Source of the DNA: Planctomycetota bacterium
GTDB lineage: Bacteria > Planctomycetota > B129-G9 > JAJDCN01
Direction of reading: 5' to 3'
Length of the DNA: 39,279 bases
NCBI GenBank assembly: GCA_029260815.1
Contig: JAJDCN010000078.1
Coordinates: 1-39,279 of the forward strand
Shown: in pieces, positions 4,701 to 22,479 of the stretch
Position numbering within the stretch: the first letter of the stretch is position 1
How the letters are laid out: every line of letters begins with the position of its first letter
Translations under genes and position numbers: made by a program
The notes under the pieces: generated by a model
The model's input: only the letters and a program-made list of their open reading frames with translations
What the model was told of the DNA's origin: nothing
Database searches by the model: none

Positions 4701-4728
4701 TTGACCGAATTCGCAAATATGTTACAAT
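4701..4728 (+). promoter_or_regulatory. Sigma70-like promoter of the gatE-gatD-glutamine synthetase operon
   Basis: TTGACC (4701-4706) and TACAAT (4723-4728) have a 16-base spacer and lie about 46 bases before the gatE start codon. It is a bacterial-type promoter in front of genes of archaeal type. Confidence 0.65.
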
Positions 4729-4774: not shown

Positions 4775-6658
4775 GTGGAATCGGTTAACTACGCGCAACT
4801 GGGTCTGAAATCCGGCGTCGAAATCCATCAGCAGATCCTCACCGACCACAAAATGTTCTGTCGCTGCCCGGCGGGACAATACTCGGACACCTACGATGCG
4901 GAAGTTCTGCGTCACATGCGCCCGACCCTCTCGGAGATGGGCACCTACGACGGCACCGCCCTGATGGAATTCAAAACGAAAAAAGAAGTCGTCTATCAGA
5001 TCAACAAAAAGTCGGTCTGTACCTACGAACTGGACGACACCCCGCCGTTTCTCGTCAACGCCCAGGGCCTGGATATCGCCATCGAGATCGCGCTGCTGCT
5101 CAATTGCAAACTCGTGGACGAGCTGTTCATCACCCGCAAGCAATATCTGGACGGCTCCATCCCCGCCGGCTTCCAGCGCACCGCCATCGTCGGTGTGGAC
5201 GGCTGGATCCCCTACAAGGACCGCAAGATCAAGATCGTCCAACTCGGCTACGAAGAGGACGCCTGTCGCGAGGTCTCCGACGTGGGACATCGCATTGTAT
5301 TCCGTACCGACCGGCTGAGCATGCCGCTCATTGAGGTGGTTACGGCCCCCGACATGCACACGCCGGAGGAATTCGCCGAGGTGGTCACGCGCCTGGGTCG
5401 CTTGTTGCGGGCCACCGGAAAGGTCCGTCGCGGCATTGGCTCGGTTCGCCAGGATGTCAATGTTTCCATCGCCGGCTCCACCCGCGTGGAGATCAAGGGC
5501 GTGCCGCGCATCGGATACCTGCCCGCCTTGGTCCACACCGAGGCCATGCGGCAGAAGGCTCTCCTGGAAATCCGCGATGAACTGAGCCGTCGCAAGATTA
5601 CCGAAGAGACCCTTCAGGCACCAACCGCTTCGGTCACCGACCTGTTTTCTGACACCGCTTGCGAACCGGTTCGCGCCGCGGTGGCCGCGGGCGAATCCGT
5701 GCGAGCCATCAAGTTGTCCGGCTTTGCCGACGTCCTCAACCATCCGGTCCAGCCGGGTCGCACGTTCGCCACCGAGTTTGCCGGCCGCGTGCGCGTAGTC
5801 GCCTGCATCGATGCGGAACCCAACTTGATCCACACCGATGCACTGCCCGAAGAAATTACCGCCGAAGAACACGAACGATTAAGACAAGAACTTGACGCGA
5901 CGGAACAAGACGTGATCGTCGTGACCTTTGGCGCCGATGCAGACACGCAGACTGCGGTCGAAGAGATCCGCCTGCGCGCCATCGAGGCGATCCACGGCGT
6001 ACCCAACGAGACCCGCCAACGGCTCGACGGCGGCTTGTCCGACTTCGAGCGGATTCTGCCCGGTCCCGACCGGATGTATCCGGACACCGATTCGCCGCCC
6101 ACGAAAATCACTGCCGAGCGCGTTGCGCGTATCCGCGCCCAACTGCCCGAACGCCCGTGGGAGCGGGAGGAACGGTACGCCACCTTGGGTATCCCCCAAG
6201 GCGTCGGCTACGCGTTGGCCATCAGCCCTTATGCGAAACTGTTCGATCGGCTCGCCGAGCGGCATCCGAAGTTCGCCACCCGCGTCGCCGTTACTTTGAC
6301 GCAGACCACGAAGGCCCTGCGTCGAGCGGGCATACCGGTCGAAAATCTGACCGACGCACACTTCGAGGCTCTCTTCGACGCCCACGCGCAGGGGACACTG
6401 GAACGCGAAGCAATTCCGGACACTTTGCGCGAGCTTGCCGCCCATCCGGATAAGAGCGTGGAATCCCTGGGCCTGGCTCGGCCCGACCCGTCGCGCATCG
6501 GAGAAGCGATCGACCAGGTTTTGAGCGAAGATTCCTATACCGGGCGTTCCGTAGACGGCAAGGTGGATTACTACGTGGGCAAGGTGCTGCACCGGCTCAA
6601 GACCTCCATCGGCGGCCGCCAGATCGCGGAGCGGGTTAGAAAGAAACTCCAGGCATGA
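4775..6658 (+). CDS. gatE: Archaeal-type Glu-tRNA(Gln) amidotransferase subunit E
   Basis: GatE phosphorylates Glu-tRNA(Gln) and accepts ammonia from GatD to form Gln-tRNA(Gln). The 627 residues are full length. The start reads like GatE, not GatB: LGLKSGVEIHQQ followed by the KMFCRCPA cysteine motif near 26-33. The cradle region has VRQDVNVSI and VEIKG. An AspRS-type GAD insertion covers about 290-405 (LFSDTACEP, SGFADVLNHP); this insertion separates GatE from bacterial GatB. A GatB/YqeY-like helical tail ends the protein. The start is GTG, chosen because GGAG lies 6 bases upstream and the GatE similarity begins at once. Its stop overlaps the gatD ATG. GatDE is regarded as archaeal, so its presence here is exceptional. 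Confidence 0.95.
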   Translation: MESVNYAQLGLKSGVEIHQQILTDHKMFCRCPAGQYSDTYDAEVLRHMRPTLSEMGTYDGTALMEFKTKKEVVYQINKKSVCTYELDDTPPFLVNAQGLDIAIEIALLLNCKLVDELFITRKQYLDGSIPAGFQRTAIVGVDGWIPYKDRKIKIVQLGYEEDACREVSDVGHRIVFRTDRLSMPLIEVVTAPDMHTPEEFAEVVTRLGRLLRATGKVRRGIGSVRQDVNVSIAGSTRVEIKGVPRIGYLPALVHTEAMRQKALLEIRDELSRRKITEETLQAPTASVTDLFSDTACEPVRAAVAAGESVRAIKLSGFADVLNHPVQPGRTFATEFAGRVRVVACIDAEPNLIHTDALPEEITAEEHERLRQELDATEQDVIVVTFGADADTQTAVEEIRLRAIEAIHGVPNETRQRLDGGLSDFERILPGPDRMYPDTDSPPTKITAERVARIRAQLPERPWEREERYATLGIPQGVGYALAISPYAKLFDRLAERHPKFATRVAVTLTQTTKALRRAGIPVENLTDAHFEALFDAHAQGTLEREAIPDTLRELAAHPDKSVESLGLARPDPSRIGEAIDQVLSEDSYTGRSVDGKVDYYVGKVLHRLKTSIGGRQIAERVRKKLQA

Positions 6659-8049
6659 GTGACACCGGCGAAGATTACAAAGGGTACCGTGGCGAAGCGC
6701 TGGCGAAGCTCAAGGCGATGGGCGCGCGCGTCTGGGGAGAGACGATCATCACGAACGAGCGCGGCTCCTATCAGGGCATCATCCTACCTCGCTCTGAAAC
6801 CGATGACGACAAACACATCGTGTTGAAGCTGGAGACCGGCTACAATATCGGCCTAACCGCGGCGGGCATCACCAAAATCGAAGAGGTTGGATACCGCAAG
6901 GCGAACTACAAGATCCCCGAGTCGGAGTTTCCCACCGACGCGGGCAAGCCGAACATCACGTTGTTGGGCACTGGCGGCACGATTGCTTCCCGTCTGGACT
7001 ACCGCACCGGCGCGGTGATCCCGGCCTTTTCGCCCGGCGAGCTGTACGGCGCGGTGCCGGAGCTGGCGGACATCTGCAACCTCAAGACCCGAAAACTGTA
7101 CGGCGTATTCTCCGAAAACATGGGACCCGAACAGTACATCGCCACCGCCAAGGCGATCGCGGAGGAGGTCGCCGCCGGCGTGCACGGCATCGTCATCGGC
7201 CACGGCACCGACACCATGCACCACACCGCCTCGATCTTGTCCTTCATGGTGCAGGACCTGCCGATACCAGTGGTCATGGTCGGCTCCCAACGTTCGTCAG
7301 ACCGGCCCTCCTCCGACGCGGCCCGCAACCTGATCTGCGCAGTTCGCACCGCCGCGGACGCCGACATCGCCGAAGTAGTCGTGTGCATGTTTGGGCCGAC
7401 CTCCGACCAGTTCAACCTGCTCCATCGCGGCACGCGCGTGCGCAAGATGCACTCCAGCTACCGTTCGGCCTTCCGCACCATTGGCGACATCCCCCTGGCC
7501 CGCGTTTGGCCCGACCGCCTGGAGATGCTGACTGACGACTACATCCGCCGTGACCCGGCGCGCACCGTCAAGCTGGACACCGCCTACGAAGAGAAGGTTA
7601 CCATTCTGTATTACTACCCGGGGATGCGGCCGGATCTGGTAGAGGCGATCGTCGAGAAAGGCTACCGGGGAATCGTGATCGCCGGCACCGGCCTGGGCCA
7701 CGTCAACCGTCCGATTAACGACGTGCTGGCCGCGGCGATCCGCGACCACGGCGTCCACGTGATCATGACTGTGCAGACCCTGTGGGGCTACGTGCAGATG
7801 TACGTGTACGATACCGGCCGCGACCTGCTGGAACTGGGCATCGTGCCCTGCGCCAATATGCTGCCGGAGGCCGCGTTTATGAAGTTGAGCTGGGTGTTGG
7901 GTCATACCGACGACCCCGCCGAGGTCAAGCGTCAGATGCTCGAGCCGATCAATCATGAGATCACGCCCGGCGAGCCCCACAACGGCTACTTGGTCTTCCA
8001 GGGCGGCATCCCGGAAGTGGAGGCGTTTGTCCGCTCGATCCTGAAGTAG
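6655..8049 (+). CDS. gatD: Archaeal-type Glu-tRNA(Gln) amidotransferase subunit D (asparaginase-like)
   Basis: GatD releases ammonia from glutamine (or asparagine) and channels it to GatE. The 464 residues have the GatD layout: an N-terminal barrel domain (about 1-90), then an L-asparaginase-type domain. Asparaginase-family active-site residues are in place: T109 in LLGTGGTIAS, T185-D186 in GHGTDTMHH, and K264 in TRVRKMHSS. The SENMGPEQY motif near 153-161 and the GSQRSSDRPSSD motif near 210-221 also match GatD rather than free asparaginases. The ATG overlaps the gatE stop as ATGA, so the two subunits should be made in equal amounts by translational coupling. The glutamine synthetase gene follows after 22 bases. 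Confidence 0.95.
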   Translation: MSDTGEDYKGYRGEALAKLKAMGARVWGETIITNERGSYQGIILPRSETDDDKHIVLKLETGYNIGLTAAGITKIEEVGYRKANYKIPESEFPTDAGKPNITLLGTGGTIASRLDYRTGAVIPAFSPGELYGAVPELADICNLKTRKLYGVFSENMGPEQYIATAKAIAEEVAAGVHGIVIGHGTDTMHHTASILSFMVQDLPIPVVMVGSQRSSDRPSSDAARNLICAVRTAADADIAEVVVCMFGPTSDQFNLLHRGTRVRKMHSSYRSAFRTIGDIPLARVWPDRLEMLTDDYIRRDPARTVKLDTAYEEKVTILYYYPGMRPDLVEAIVEKGYRGIVIAGTGLGHVNRPINDVLAAAIRDHGVHVIMTVQTLWGYVQMYVYDTGRDLLELGIVPCANMLPEAAFMKLSWVLGHTDDPAEVKRQMLEPINHEITPGEPHNGYLVFQGGIPEVEAFVRSILK

Positions 8050-8071: not shown

Positions 8072-9622
8072 ATGGGAACCGACGGATTTGTAGACCTCAA
8101 TGCCAACCCGCTGGTGGTCCGGTTGGGAAAGCCCCCCGGCGAATTCCAGCGCAAAGACCTGATCCAGTTCATCGCCGAGGACCAGATCCGCGCAATCCAT
8201 TTCCGATACGCCGGCGGCGACGGACGCCTCAAGGAACTCAAGCTACCGGTAAACAACCGCCGCGATCTGGAGGTGATGTTGGCCGAAGGCGAGCGAGTCG
8301 ACGGCTCTAGCCTGTTCAAAGGGATCATGCTGGCCGAGTCGAGCGATTTGTACGCCGTACCCGTCTACCGTTCCGCATTCGTTGATCCCTTCGACCCGAC
8401 GACCCTGCATCTGTTCTGTCGCTTCTTCGACCACTCCGGCGAGCCGTTCGCCCACAGCCCGGCCAACATTCTCGCGCGAGCCGCCGAGCAGATGCGGGAG
8501 AAGACCGGCGTCGAGCTCCACGCTCTGGGCGAGTTGGAGTTCTTCCTCATCCTTGATCCGACGGACCAGGACCTGTTCCCGCCCACCGCGCAGGCCGCCT
8601 ACCATGAAAGCGCGCCATACACCAAGGGCGACTTGATCACCAGCGAAATCCTCCGACACGCCGCGCGGATTACCACCGGCCACGTCAAATATTGCCACGC
8701 GGAGGTCGGGGCGATTGACAGCCTCGAATCCCAGATCAAGGCCCTGGCCGGCAAGCGGTTGGAGCAACACGAGCTGGAGTTCCTACCTGCGCCGGTGGAG
8801 GACACGGCCGATTTCCTGGTGACCTGCCAGTGGCTGATCCGTCGCGTGGCCGCGCAGTACGGCGCCGGCGTGACATTTGCGCCCAAACTGGATGACGGCA
8901 TCGCCGGCAACGGGCTGCACATCCACATGGCCGGCGTTCGTGACGGGCGCAACGCCATGCTCGACGACGGCGCTCTGTCGGAAGTCGCAAAGAGAATGAT
9001 CGCCGGGACGCTCAAGCACGCCGCGTCCCTCACCGGCTTTGGCAACACGGTGGCCTCCGCCTACCTGCGGCTGGTGCCCGGCCAAGAAGCGCCCACGCGG
9101 ATCTGCTGGAGCGAGCGGAATCGTTCGGCCTTGGTTCGCGTGCCGCTGGCTTGGGGCAACACGCCGGACATGGCCAGCCGCGTCAATCCGGAGCAGTCGG
9201 CCGCGCGCCAGAAAGGAGACGGACTGCAGACCGTAGAGTTCCGCGCGCCGGACGGCTCGGCCGATATCTACCTGTTGCTGGCCGGCCTGTGCAAGGCGGT
9301 GACCGATGGACTGACCGCCGCCAACAGTCTGGAGCGCGCCAAACAACTGCACGTCCAGGGCAACTTCCTCCAGGACGCCGCTGTGGCCGGCTCCCTGGAT
9401 GCCTTGCCCGCCTCCTGCCACGCCTCAGCCGGTGCGCTCGAAGCCGACCGGACCTTCTACGAAGCCGACGGCGTCTTTCCGCCCGCAGTCATCGACTTCG
9501 CGCTGCGCCGGCTCCGGGAGAACCGGGACGAATCCCTCAACGCGGAGTTGGATCGCCTGGCCGACCGAAACCGGGCCGTCTTCGCCCGCAAGATCATGCA
9601 CCGCGTCGCGTTGCGACTCTAG
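8072..9622 (+). CDS. Divergent type I glutamine synthetase-like protein
   Basis: Glutamine synthetase makes glutamine from glutamate, ammonia and ATP. The 516 residues keep the main family marks: DGSSLFKG, the ExE metal motif in LGELEFFL, QHELEF, the nucleotide-site histidines in GNGLHIHM, the long RLVPGQEAPTR...NRSALVRVP block, and VEFRAPD. Differences from ordinary GlnA include SADIYL where SANPYL is usual, and no recognisable adenylylation-site Tyr loop. Glutamine synthetase-like ligases with other amines exist, so the substrate is not proven. TGGAG precedes the ATG. Its place 22 bases after gatD suggests that it supplies, or once supplied, the amide donor used by GatD. Confidence 0.85.
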   Translation: MGTDGFVDLNANPLVVRLGKPPGEFQRKDLIQFIAEDQIRAIHFRYAGGDGRLKELKLPVNNRRDLEVMLAEGERVDGSSLFKGIMLAESSDLYAVPVYRSAFVDPFDPTTLHLFCRFFDHSGEPFAHSPANILARAAEQMREKTGVELHALGELEFFLILDPTDQDLFPPTAQAAYHESAPYTKGDLITSEILRHAARITTGHVKYCHAEVGAIDSLESQIKALAGKRLEQHELEFLPAPVEDTADFLVTCQWLIRRVAAQYGAGVTFAPKLDDGIAGNGLHIHMAGVRDGRNAMLDDGALSEVAKRMIAGTLKHAASLTGFGNTVASAYLRLVPGQEAPTRICWSERNRSALVRVPLAWGNTPDMASRVNPEQSAARQKGDGLQTVEFRAPDGSADIYLLLAGLCKAVTDGLTAANSLERAKQLHVQGNFLQDAAVAGSLDALPASCHASAGALEADRTFYEADGVFPPAVIDFALRRLRENRDESLNAELDRLADRNRAVFARKIMHRVALRL

Positions 9623-10979: not shown

Positions 10980-11540
10980 ATGCCGCTGGCCAAGGCGTTT
11001 CCCGCGGAGGAGGTCTTCTACGACGGGAGCCAGATCCGCGGCCACTGGGCCCTGGAGACCTTCGACCTGGAAGGGGACAGCGCGGTCTGTTTCGTGGGCG
11101 GCTGCGACGTGGCGCCGGAGCACATGGCCGACCTGGAGGACAAGCGGGCGGGCAGCCGGATCTGTGGGGCTCGGATGCTGCACATTGTCGTGGAGCATTT
11201 CGACTGCGACCTGCGGCTGGTAACCACCCGGCAGCGCTTGCTGGCTGCCTTGGCCGCTGCCGAATGGGCGGCCCGGACCGGAGCGAAGATTACCCGGCGG
11301 GGCGACGACCTGTATGACGCGGAAGCGAAGCTATCGATCTCGGTCGGGGTGCGGACCCGGGTTTCGGGCAAGATTCACTTCGGCGTGAACGTGACCAACG
11401 AAGGCACCCCCGTACCGACCCGAGCGCTGAGCGACTACGGGATCGAGCCGATGGATTTCGGCCGGGCCCTGGTGGAGCACTATGAACGGGAGCTGGACGG
11501 CATTGAACGGGCCATGACGCTCGTCGTAGGCGTAGACTAA
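10980..11540 (+). CDS. DUF366-like conserved protein
   Basis: The 186 residues resemble the DUF366 family, which is best known from archaea and has no settled function. The recognisable marks are IRGHWAL near the start, a [13 protein letters not shown] strand, a DLED motif, and [13 protein letters not shown], where the HIVVEHFD string is the clearest. It looks cytosolic, with no signal peptide or membrane segment. The ATG lies 3 bases after the stop of the HEAT lipoprotein gene and has a GGAG in that junction, so the two are translated from one message. The gene is followed by accB after 22 bases. The family call rests on remembered motifs, not on a search. Confidence 0.7.
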
Positions 11541-20655: not shown

Positions 20656-20775
20656 TCAGCCAAACACCTTGAGAAACAACGAAATGAGCCATGAGATGAG
20701 CCAGCCCAGGAGGGCGATGAACGGAATGATCCACAACGGCAGCAGGTCCCAAAACTTGTACCAGCCCCATTTCAT
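20656..20775 (-). CDS. Small 39-residue membrane peptide coupled to the ankyrin lipoprotein
   Basis: Translation of 20775-20656 gives a 39-residue peptide starting MKWGWYKFWDLLPLW and ending SLFLKVFG. It is rich in Trp, Leu, Ile and Phe, with one membrane span over about residues 10-35 and Lys at both ends. Its ATG overlaps the TGA of the preceding ankyrin lipoprotein gene as ATGA, which is the main evidence for translation. I do not recognise a family. Small Trp-rich membrane peptides can be complex subunits, membrane anchors or toxins; nothing here decides between them. Confidence 0.6.
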   Translation of the reverse strand: MKWGWYKFWDLLPLWIIPFIALLGWLISWLISLFLKVFG

Positions 20776-22409
20776 TTTTGATCGAAGAATTTTTTCATCG
20801 AGGTATTATGATTACTGTCATGTGGCCACGAGCCGTGTTTTCCGCCATATTTTTTAAGCAGCGCGGCAACCTCCAAGTAGGCGTGCGCGGGGAGGTAGTA
20901 TTTGCGACCGACATTGCAACCGATAGAATAACGGCCGCGTTCTTTTATCATTTTCTCGCGGAACTGACGCTCTTCTTCATGGTGCGCGTCGGCCACGCGA
21001 TAGAGATCCAACATGCGTGCGAGCGTTGTCCTGCGGTGGTGGTCTCGTTCGTTGGGATCCGCGCCTTTATTCAGCAGCATTTCGATAAGAGCCAGGTTGA
21101 ACGGCCAGCTTCGGCGATGCAATGCAAGCTCCAGGGCCGTGGCACCTGCTGTGTCGCGTGCACGAACATCGGCTCCATTGGCTAGAAAAAACTGCGCATG
21201 GTGCGGTTGTTTCCAGCGGATCGCATGCAATAGGGGCGTTGCCCCCTGCCAATCTTTCACATTGACATCGGCGCCGACTTGAATAAGTTGTTGTCCGATC
21301 TCTTGCCATGGGCCGTACCGAGAACGTGGGAGGAAAAAAATTGCTGTTCCGCCATTCTTCAAGGGGAGGTTGACATCCGCTCCGTGCTCGAGCAGAAGCT
21401 CGAACACGTCAATTTTTCCTCCTCCAACCGCATTGATAAGCCCTGTGTTGGGATCAGCACCTAGCTCAATAAATCGCTCTATGGCATCCAGCGGGTAACT
21501 ATATCGAATAATAAGTTGCAGGGGCCGTTCTTCTGTGTCGAATTCTCGTAAAGAGACGAGGTATGGATTGGCTTCGATAAGATCCTCGACTTCGTCCCAC
21601 TGGCGCTTGCGTAAAGTCGCAAAGAAGCTTTGCAGTTCGTCCTGTGTACAGGGGCTGATCCCTCCCAATTCGCGCAGAGTCTTGACACACGCTTGAACGG
21701 TTTGTAATTCCTTTCTCCTGTTGGCAAGCGTGGCTGCACTGTACTGTTCTTTCTTTTTCCGCTCGAGATCTTCTTCAGCACTGCGTTGGCGCCATTCGCC
21801 GCGATATAGAGGCGTTTCTCCATCACGGTTCTTAGCATTCACGTTGGCTCCGTGCTCAACCAGGAAGAGAATCATCCGAGGCTCCCGCGCAAAATATAGA
21901 GGCGTGTAGCCATCCTTGTCTTGAGCATCGATCTTGGCGTTCACCTCGATCAGTAGCCCGGTGAGATCAAAATCTCGATTGTCTACCGCATGGTGCAACG
22001 GTGTCCAACCTTCGAGATCCGAGGCACTCGGATTAGCGTCATGCTCAAGCAGTAAGCTCACGATCTGACGTTGTGCAACCCGGCGTTGAGGTTTTGGCAG
22101 AAAAGCAATGGTTCCGGTGAGCAACGTACGGCCCAAGTTGTCGCGGGTACGCACCAAGTCGGGCGTTTGCCGGATCGAATCGACAAGTTGTTTGATGTCC
22201 TCGACGGGTCGTTGCTCACGGAGAATACCGGCAATCATTCCCGACGCATAGTTGGTCAGGTTTTGCAGCATTGGATCCGTTTCTAAAGGCGGATCCAAAG
22301 TAGAGATGCTTTCAGGGGGTGTTTGCGGTGGAGCGCTCGTGGATGGACTCGAACAGGCCGCCAACAGCGTCAGCGCCATGGACAGGGATACAGCGATAAA
22401 CACTTTCAT
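20772..22409 (-). CDS. Ankyrin-repeat lipoprotein
   Basis: This 545-residue protein begins with a signal peptide and lipobox LLAAC (Cys19), so it is probably membrane-anchored outside the cytoplasm. Ankyrin repeats start near residue 120 (GWTPLHHAVDNRDFDLTGLL, GYTPLYFAREPRMILFL, GETPLYRG) and a second block runs from about 270 to 450 (GATPLLHAIRWKQ, GATALELALHRRS). A charged helical segment separates the blocks. Ankyrin arrays bind protein partners; none is evident. The start at 22409 was chosen because AAGGAGG lies a few bases upstream and the signal peptide starts there. Its stop overlaps the ATG of the 39-residue membrane peptide. Base use looks less GC-rich than in the hemW genes. Confidence 0.85.
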   Translation of the reverse strand: MKVFIAVSLSMALTLLAACSSPSTSAPPQTPPESISTLDPPLETDPMLQNLTNYASGMIAGILREQRPVEDIKQLVDSIRQTPDLVRTRDNLGRTLLTGTIAFLPKPQRRVAQRQIVSLLLEHDANPSASDLEGWTPLHHAVDNRDFDLTGLLIEVNAKIDAQDKDGYTPLYFAREPRMILFLVEHGANVNAKNRDGETPLYRGEWRQRSAEEDLERKKKEQYSAATLANRRKELQTVQACVKTLRELGGISPCTQDELQSFFATLRKRQWDEVEDLIEANPYLVSLREFDTEERPLQLIIRYSYPLDAIERFIELGADPNTGLINAVGGGKIDVFELLLEHGADVNLPLKNGGTAIFFLPRSRYGPWQEIGQQLIQVGADVNVKDWQGATPLLHAIRWKQPHHAQFFLANGADVRARDTAGATALELALHRRSWPFNLALIEMLLNKGADPNERDHHRRTTLARMLDLYRVADAHHEEERQFREKMIKERGRYSIGCNVGRKYYLPAHAYLEVAALLKKYGGKHGSWPHDSNHNTSMKKFFDQK

Positions 22410-22450
22410 AACGACCTCCTTCTTAGATAGAAGGTAGCGGCCCTGAAACA

Positions 22451-22479
22451 ATTCTACAGAAAGAAACCTTCGCGTTCAA
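22451..22479 (-). promoter_or_regulatory. Sigma70-like promoter of the ankyrin lipoprotein gene
   Basis: On the minus strand TTGAAC (22479-22474) and TAGAAT (22456-22451) are separated by 17 bases, 41 bases before the ATG, in the short gap after the 69-residue protein gene. Confidence 0.6.

Follow-up and report, generated by a model that had tools for sequence, protein, structure and literature searches.

The window analysed here is the whole of a 39,279-nucleotide stretch from a Planctomycetota bacterium (assembly GCA_029260815.1, contig JAJDCN010000078.1), and it carries gatE and gatD, the genes for the two subunits of the amidotransferase GatDE. We think it quite likely that their products make up a functional glutamine-dependent Glu-tRNA(Gln) amidotransferase from a deep bacterial GatDE branch, its activity being predicted from sequence, and the locus is a member of the GatDE family by each of the family features on which our analysis could decide. 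This bacterial variant is wider than was supposed by the literature or by an earlier sequence-only reading of the window, which had singled out the pair. As that reading had claimed, both genes are full-length open frames: gatE (4775..6658, + strand), for Glu-tRNA(Gln) amidotransferase subunit GatE, starts with GTG and encodes 627 amino acids (aa), and gatD (6655..8049, + strand), for the glutaminase/asparaginase-type subunit GatD, starts with ATG and encodes 464 aa, with a 4-base overlap between them. Both products lie above curated NCBIfam equivalog cut-offs, GatE with 569.6 bits against NF003107 (cut-off 456) and 507.4 against TIGR00134 (cut-off 319.55), and GatD with 502.7 bits against TIGR02153 (cut-off 324) and 502.0 against NF003217 (cut-off 310). 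The Pfam domain order of GatE is that of the family, namely GatB_N (PF02934) with the GAD insertion (PF02938; residues 300-394, 5672..5956, + strand) followed by the GatB_Yqey tail (PF02637; residues 489-625, 6239..6649, + strand), and GatD has the N-terminal domain GatD_N (PF18195, 51.6 bits; residues 32-76, 6748..6882, + strand) and both asparaginase domains. The GatD catalytic site predicted earlier is intact, with T109 (6979..6981, + strand) identical in P. abyssi and M. thermautotrophicus and conserved in 78 of 79 aligned rows (the remaining row reads X), and T185-D186 (7207..7212, + strand) and K264 (7444..7446, + strand) kept in 79/79; an N-terminal domain joined to such a Thr/Thr-Asp/Lys site is what GatDE membership demands of GatD. 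In GatE, E16, H18, E160 and E161 are conserved in 100/100 rows of the alignment.

The closest solved relatives of both subunits by sequence are the two archaeal GatDE structures (P. abyssi 1ZQ1, and M. thermautotrophicus 2D6F with tRNA-Gln), which have the same subunits, domains, catalytic residues and fold. Identity to the P. abyssi and M. thermautotrophicus proteins is 36.6% and 34.9% for GatE and 48.9% and 45.7% for GatD, and phmmer gave E 8e-116 for GatE against 1zq1_C and E 2e-122 for GatD against 1zq1_A. With an AlphaFold2 model of GatE (mean predicted local distance difference test score, pLDDT, 83.6; predicted template modelling score 0.82), Foldseek placed 1zq1_C (3.4e-46) and 2d6f at the top and GatB after them. 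That the pair might be an ordinary GatB plus a free asparaginase is hardly credible, and we rejected it on the GatE and GatD model scores and the Pfam domains. GatCAB carries out the same reaction on Glu-tRNA(Gln), and GatB has catalytic and Yqey parts in common with GatE; however, GatB is not known to have the GAD insertion, GatA is an amidase in contrast to the asparaginase-type GatD, and the window GatE scores far under the cut-offs of the GatB models (155.1 of 338 and 120.8 of 314.8 bits), which places it outside GatCAB. Moreover, a true gatB sits elsewhere in the same genome. Type I asparaginases share the GatD catalytic domain (377.1 bits against TIGR00519), but GatD adds its N-terminal domain, scores higher with the GatD models and has gatE as a partner gene. 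The FCRC motif, which the sequence-only reading had taken as specific to GatE, was rejected as such a mark, because FCSC occurs in the GatB of this genome and the P. abyssi GatE is without the cysteines.

The genes are resident in a bacterium, as had been proposed. The window is one contig (C328) of a draft genome of 3.53 Mb in 352 contigs, 89.4% complete, and the rRNA operon that it holds was confirmed as bacterial. Bacterial genes of similar composition flank gatE-gatD on both sides: the guanine-plus-cytosine (GC) content of gatE and gatD (0.617 and 0.628) lies inside the span of 0.602-0.652 of clpC, the glutamine synthetase (GS)-family gene, accC and pfk. Overall base composition is close to that of the neighbours, as claimed; the third-position GC of gatE, 0.76, is the lowest among the six genes (0.797-0.849 in the other five). 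The proposed bacterial promoter (4701-4728) was dropped as evidence, since it is one match against a mean of 0.9 in shuffled sequences. GatE was matched at E 1e-60 in 4/4 sampled genomes of the class, including its own; three are above the cut-off, and the fourth has the gene split into two pieces at contig ends. An artefact of assembly or binning can draw on the fragmented state of the draft and on the fact that the GatE-bearing records among our best 80 matches in GTDB genomes are titled as metagenome-assembled, and it is nevertheless about as hard to believe as the GatB explanation. Besides the class-mates and the flanking genes of like composition, gatDE is found in four records titled chromosome (L163, L172, L192, L233), one of them titled "complete genome", so a binning error is unlikely to be the cause of the whole bacterial pattern. 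Chimerism or contamination was rejected on the presence of gatE in 4/4 class genomes and, above the cut-off, in 20/392 genomes of the phylum.

GatDE is not confined to archaea, contrary to what the sequence-only reading had assumed. Among 392 sampled Planctomycetota genomes, GatE is above the cut-off in the 20 just mentioned and matches at E 1e-60 in 22. A scan of GTDB genomes with a Planctomycetota GatE alignment and motifs as query gave at least 589 pattern matches, and at least 587 GatE stretches were confirmed by tblastn; among the 80 best of these, 79 have bacterial titles and one an archaeal title. The groups named in the bacterial titles include Ignavibacteria, Bacteroidota, Aminicenantes, Acidobacteria, Calditrichota, Planctomycetota, Gemmatimonadota, Latescibacteria and Krumholzibacteriota, and the query biases these loci (L159-L238) to the bacterial GatE clade. 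The single archaeal title belongs to a contig of a Thermoplasmata archaeon (L162:137-5210, genome G393), whose GatDE is of the bacterial clade. In viral contigs no archaeal GatE was found, and the sole archaeal GatE from plasmids was a frame-broken, unannotated gatE copy in two reading frames on a Natrinema plasmid (L239:3001-4652).

The trees of GatE and GatD both set a bacterial clade of GatDE, with the window in it, apart from archaeal sequences, and the latter were three GatE and two GatD references only. In a GatB-rooted GatE tree (48 selected rows; GatB rows 6 of 17), one clade unites the three archaeal GatE (100/98) and a second one the bacterial GatE together with L162 (97/96); a GatE tree without GatB (100 rows) gave the same split, and in the GatD tree (34 selected rows) the bacterial side, again including L162, stands apart (100/100). 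Rows of GatE up to 560 aa and GatD up to 380 aa were excluded, long rows were end-trimmed by script, and the trees and neighbour counts leave out L159 and L160, which are copies of L077 and L097. A transfer of the genes from archaea, transfer or an old event having been the two origins named in the sequence-only reading, is therefore not shown. With its bacterial rRNA and its place in the bacterial clade rather than among the few archaeal references, the window does not qualify as an archaeal system by host or by place. A recent transfer of archaeal gatDE into the window lineage is improbable in our view. It would agree with the description of the family from archaea and with the same-clade GatDE of the Thermoplasmata contig, and an approximately unbiased (AU) test did not reject a grouping of L162 with the archaeal GatE, three in number (p 0.183; the groups tested were named after the first tree had been seen); the bacterial GatE without L162 are one side of a weakly supported branch (70/50). 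However, the window groups with other bacteria, the archaeal GatE are a clade of their own in the rooted tree, the composition is close to that of the neighbouring genes, and L162 lies within the bacterial side of the GatD tree, paired with a Gemmatimonadota row (95/84), a placing that suggests a transfer into that archaeon. Lateral movement of GatDE between bacterial phyla is also indicated by the trees, because the 14 Planctomycetota rows as one clade were rejected by the AU test (p 1e-7). As far as these trees reach, the bacterial clade does not fall inside the few archaeal sequences compared, and so small an archaeal sample does not allow a choice between an ancient split and an early transfer out of archaea that it does not cover. 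We put forward only tentatively that bacteria may have their own ancient GatDE lineage, which would have split near the root of the family, would read a tRNA-Gln with U1-A72 and would spread between phyla.

The tRNA evidence is likewise bacterial. Two tRNA-Gln genes (CUG, UUG) were found in the window genome, and both have U1-A72, the bacterial first pair, in contrast to the A1-U72 that excerpts of a review give for archaea; an archaeal-type tRNA-Gln, which might have accompanied an archaeal-type enzyme, was thus not found there. This bars the name "archaeal system" and leaves GatDE membership intact. Since the host tRNA-Gln genes have U1-A72, the window GatDE should accept the bacterial first pair, unlike the GatDE described from archaea. 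In a small survey, with first pairs judged by eye, the bacterial tRNA-Gln genes examined all keep U1-A72, both in GatE-positive bacteria (the window genome with two genes, G054, G098, G396, G397) and in GatE-negative ones (G006, G012 with two genes, G016, G042); the pattern search over 60 genomes had matches in 21 only (32 matches), and tRNA-Gln lies within 8 of 30 gatE loci scanned. Both window-genome genes carry discriminator A73, and excerpts of a review give G73 for bacterial tRNA-Gln; A73 was rejected as a mark of GatDE hosts, as it also occurs, judged by eye, in tRNA-Gln of the GatE-negative G012 and G042.

Two sequence features set the bacterial proteins apart from the archaeal ones. 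The GatE signature DGSIPAGFQ (residues 126-134, 5150..5176, + strand) has the clade-wide form DGSIP[TA]GFQ, versus DGSN..GFQ in the three archaeal references; I129-P130 is present in 97/97 rows of the bacterial clade (L162 included) and in 0/3 archaeal rows, which have N there, and I-P also occurs in 18 relatives found by profile, a less biased test than the loci L159-L238. The bacterial loop looks more GatB-like than the archaeal one, because GatB of the window genome, which reads ADIPKNYQ, has a proline at the matching place (matched by eye). It may be this loop that reads the first tRNA base pair; in the AlphaFold2 model it is uncertain, residues 123-133 being among the segments under pLDDT 50. 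For GatFAB, excerpts of PMC4027206 state that the cradle domain can recognise U1-A72, and say no more of it. The second feature is an extra conserved C-terminal tail of GatD, EPHNGYLVFQGGIPEVEAFVRSILK (7972..8046, + strand), with [ND]GYx[IVLF] within the last 45 residues of 77/77 bacterial-clade GatD rows; the alignable part of the P. abyssi and M. thermautotrophicus GatD ends at window residues 445 and 436, respectively, with just 2 and 11 residues left after it.

What the enzyme would do in its host depends on the other genes of the pathway. The sequence-only reading had held that GatDE would let the cell make Gln-tRNA(Gln) without GatCAB, but gatC, gatA and gatB are clustered on another contig (C322), all above cut-offs, and GatCAB alone could supply Gln-tRNA(Gln), so there is no support for the idea that GatDE makes the cell independent of GatCAB: GatDE is a second amidotransferase in this genome and not a bypass. 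That cluster also contains a frame of 229 aa between gatA and gatB (L037:6116-6805, - strand). Of the pathway genes sought, only glutaminyl-tRNA synthetase (GlnRS) went unmatched in the window genome (89.4% complete); three class-mates (73-79% complete) gave no GlnRS match either, so Gln-tRNA(Gln) has to be made by an indirect route. One gene only, a bacterial-type glutamyl-tRNA synthetase (GluRS), was found to have the class I E/Q synthetase domain. This lone GluRS (G000:C82, L051:2361-3686, - strand) seems short by about 40 residues between the halves of its catalytic domain: it skips positions 101-140 or so of the PF00749 and TIGR00464 models, where bacterial GluRS has its zinc-binding subdomain.

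In the mechanism that we propose, the single GluRS would put glutamate on tRNA-Gln, as the lack of a GlnRS match suggests, and glutamine would be hydrolysed by GatD at T109/T185-D186/K264. By analogy with the archaeal enzyme, the ammonia would then pass to GatE, where the ATP-activated glutamate on the tRNA would be amidated to Gln-tRNA(Gln), presumably with the Yqey tail gripping the tRNA, and GatDE would do this work beside GatCAB. The adjoining GS-family gene (8072..9622, + strand), 22 bases past gatD, may supply glutamine as the amide donor; it has 171.1 bits against PF00120 and 42.7 bits against PF03951 and is under the GlnA equivalog cut-off (199.9 of 429.15).

With both enzymes in the window genome, a division of labour as in archaea, with GatDE for glutamine and GatCAB kept for asparagine, may be considered, and we find it rather unlikely. 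GatA and GlnRS were sought in 60 of the 392 phylum genomes, and the counts use curated cut-offs, under which partial hits leave G017 (GatA) and G435 and G437 (GlnRS) unsure. The 22 GatE-positive Planctomycetota comprise 6 genomes with GlnRS and GatA, 4 with GlnRS only, 6 with GatA only and 6 with neither, and the 38 GatE-negative ones 16, 4, 16 and 2, respectively. GatA is thus rarer with GatE, in 12/22 versus 32/38 genomes (p 0.017), in line with such a division; but in genomes at least 85% complete the figures are 11/17 versus 29/33 (p 0.07). The window genome also has an asparaginyl-tRNA synthetase (AsnRS) above its cut-off, so that asparagine needs no GatCAB, and a bacterial aspartyl-tRNA synthetase. 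Although AsnRS is present, tRNA-Asn was not found among the 44 tRNA hits of the assembly, which also speaks against the division and is probably due to the incomplete assembly. Only G123 (88%) and G248 (90%) of the six GatE-positive "neither" genomes are at least 85% complete, and at that completeness "neither" applies to 2/17 GatE-positive versus 1/33 GatE-negative genomes (p 0.26). A substitution of GatDE for GatCAB is suggested rather than shown.

GlnRS itself is about equally frequent in Planctomycetota with and without GatE (10/22 versus 20/38, p 0.79). In 50 of the best-80 genomes (L161-L210; completeness not told, and one of them the archaeal L162), GlnRS and GatA occur together in 18, GlnRS only in 21, GatA only in 3 and neither in 8. 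Several observations weigh against a working GatDE that is the host's route to Gln-tRNA(Gln). Since GlnRS is also present in 39/50 of these GatE genomes, GatDE is often not the needed route, and there is room for another role; in the window genome it may be redundant beside gatCAB, the sequence does not allow the GluRS to be called non-discriminating, the first pair of the host tRNA-Gln differs from that described for archaeal GatDE partners, and no GatD was found in the stretch around gatE in 19/100 loci. Some of the loci without GatD are contig ends, and others (such as L086, L186, L222) are not. It is quite possible, although we incline against it, that GatDE is a proofreader or rescue enzyme, which would repair Glu-tRNA(Gln) from a loose GluRS and leave most charging to GlnRS or GatCAB. 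The coexistence with GlnRS (39/50 genomes of the scan, 10/22 Planctomycetota) and the GlnRS genes that overlap gatE-gatD in three genomes and adjoin gatD in a fourth, described below, agree with this role, whereas no GlnRS was found in the class of the window and some GatE genomes have neither GlnRS nor GatA above cut-offs. The chemistry would equal that of the amidotransferase we propose, the role alone being different.

The gene neighbourhoods join gatD and gatE, whose products would form one enzyme, and link them to tRNA-Gln. Beyond the overlap in the window, GatD lies inside the stretch around gatE in 81/100 other loci by best hit (79/101 by clustering, window included; one gene is represented by two pieces, L079 and L080), and the genes often overlap. 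GlnRS lies in the stretch in 4/100 other loci. In three of these (L089, L091, L095) a GlnRS-YqeY fusion gene comes immediately before gatE-gatD, with the genes overlapping (of the junctions, only that of L091 was read, as GTGA). In the genomes concerned (G030, G054, G073) the fusion overlaps gatE and gatE overlaps gatD, which ties GatDE to tRNA-Gln charging; they are 3/4 of the GatE-positive genomes of one Planctomycetota family, and in the fourth, G107, GlnRS is on a different contig. In L212 the GlnRS gene faces gatD, and on the archaeal contig L162 gatE is separated from a GS gene by a tRNA-Gln gene whose first pair can be read as A1-U72. All of this agrees with a role in the synthesis of Gln-tRNA(Gln). 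The G393 assembly, to which L162 belongs, also has a strong GlnRS hit (731.7 bits); archaea are without GlnRS according to excerpts of a review, and the hit is either contamination or a transfer. GS-family genes are in the stretch in 10/100 other loci, and other recurrent neighbours, namely a secretion-tail protein, a histidine kinase, PhoH and UbiA (10, 9, 7 and 5 loci of 101), seem generic. On the window, a DUF366 protein of unknown function (10980-11540, + strand) follows the gatE-gatD-GS cluster, and an ankyrin-repeat protein is encoded at 20772-22451 (- strand).

Excerpts of PMC9499178 place GatDE today in archaea only, where it contacts the D-loop and A1:U72, and excerpts of PMC8007984 likewise state that it occurs solely in archaea; PMC7373986, in the parts consulted, assigns GatCAB to bacteria and GatDE to archaea without the word "only". 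Among the matches listed from open-licence papers, no title or abstract opening reported bacterial GatDE, which does not prove its absence from the literature. The words amidotransferase and GatDE do not occur in PMC5317091 on Caldithrix abyssi, and annotation pipelines with NCBIfam models probably name these genes already. Our results indicate that the archaea-only rule looks wrong. Excerpts of PMC3927822, in which the word GatDE does not occur, sort 366 bacterial genomes into five groups by GluRS, GlnRS and gatCAB and describe none without both GlnRS and gatCAB, and surveys that count these three alone, as in this paper, overlook a third enzyme. The excerpts of PMC9499178 also build on the absence of GatDE from bacteria in their arguments on the origin of the glutamine pathway and the last universal common ancestor, and on how archaeal tRNA-Gln and GatDE evolved together. 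A bacterial clade that conserves the catalytic sites, in hosts whose tRNA-Gln has U1-A72, makes these arguments testable by ordinary biochemistry.

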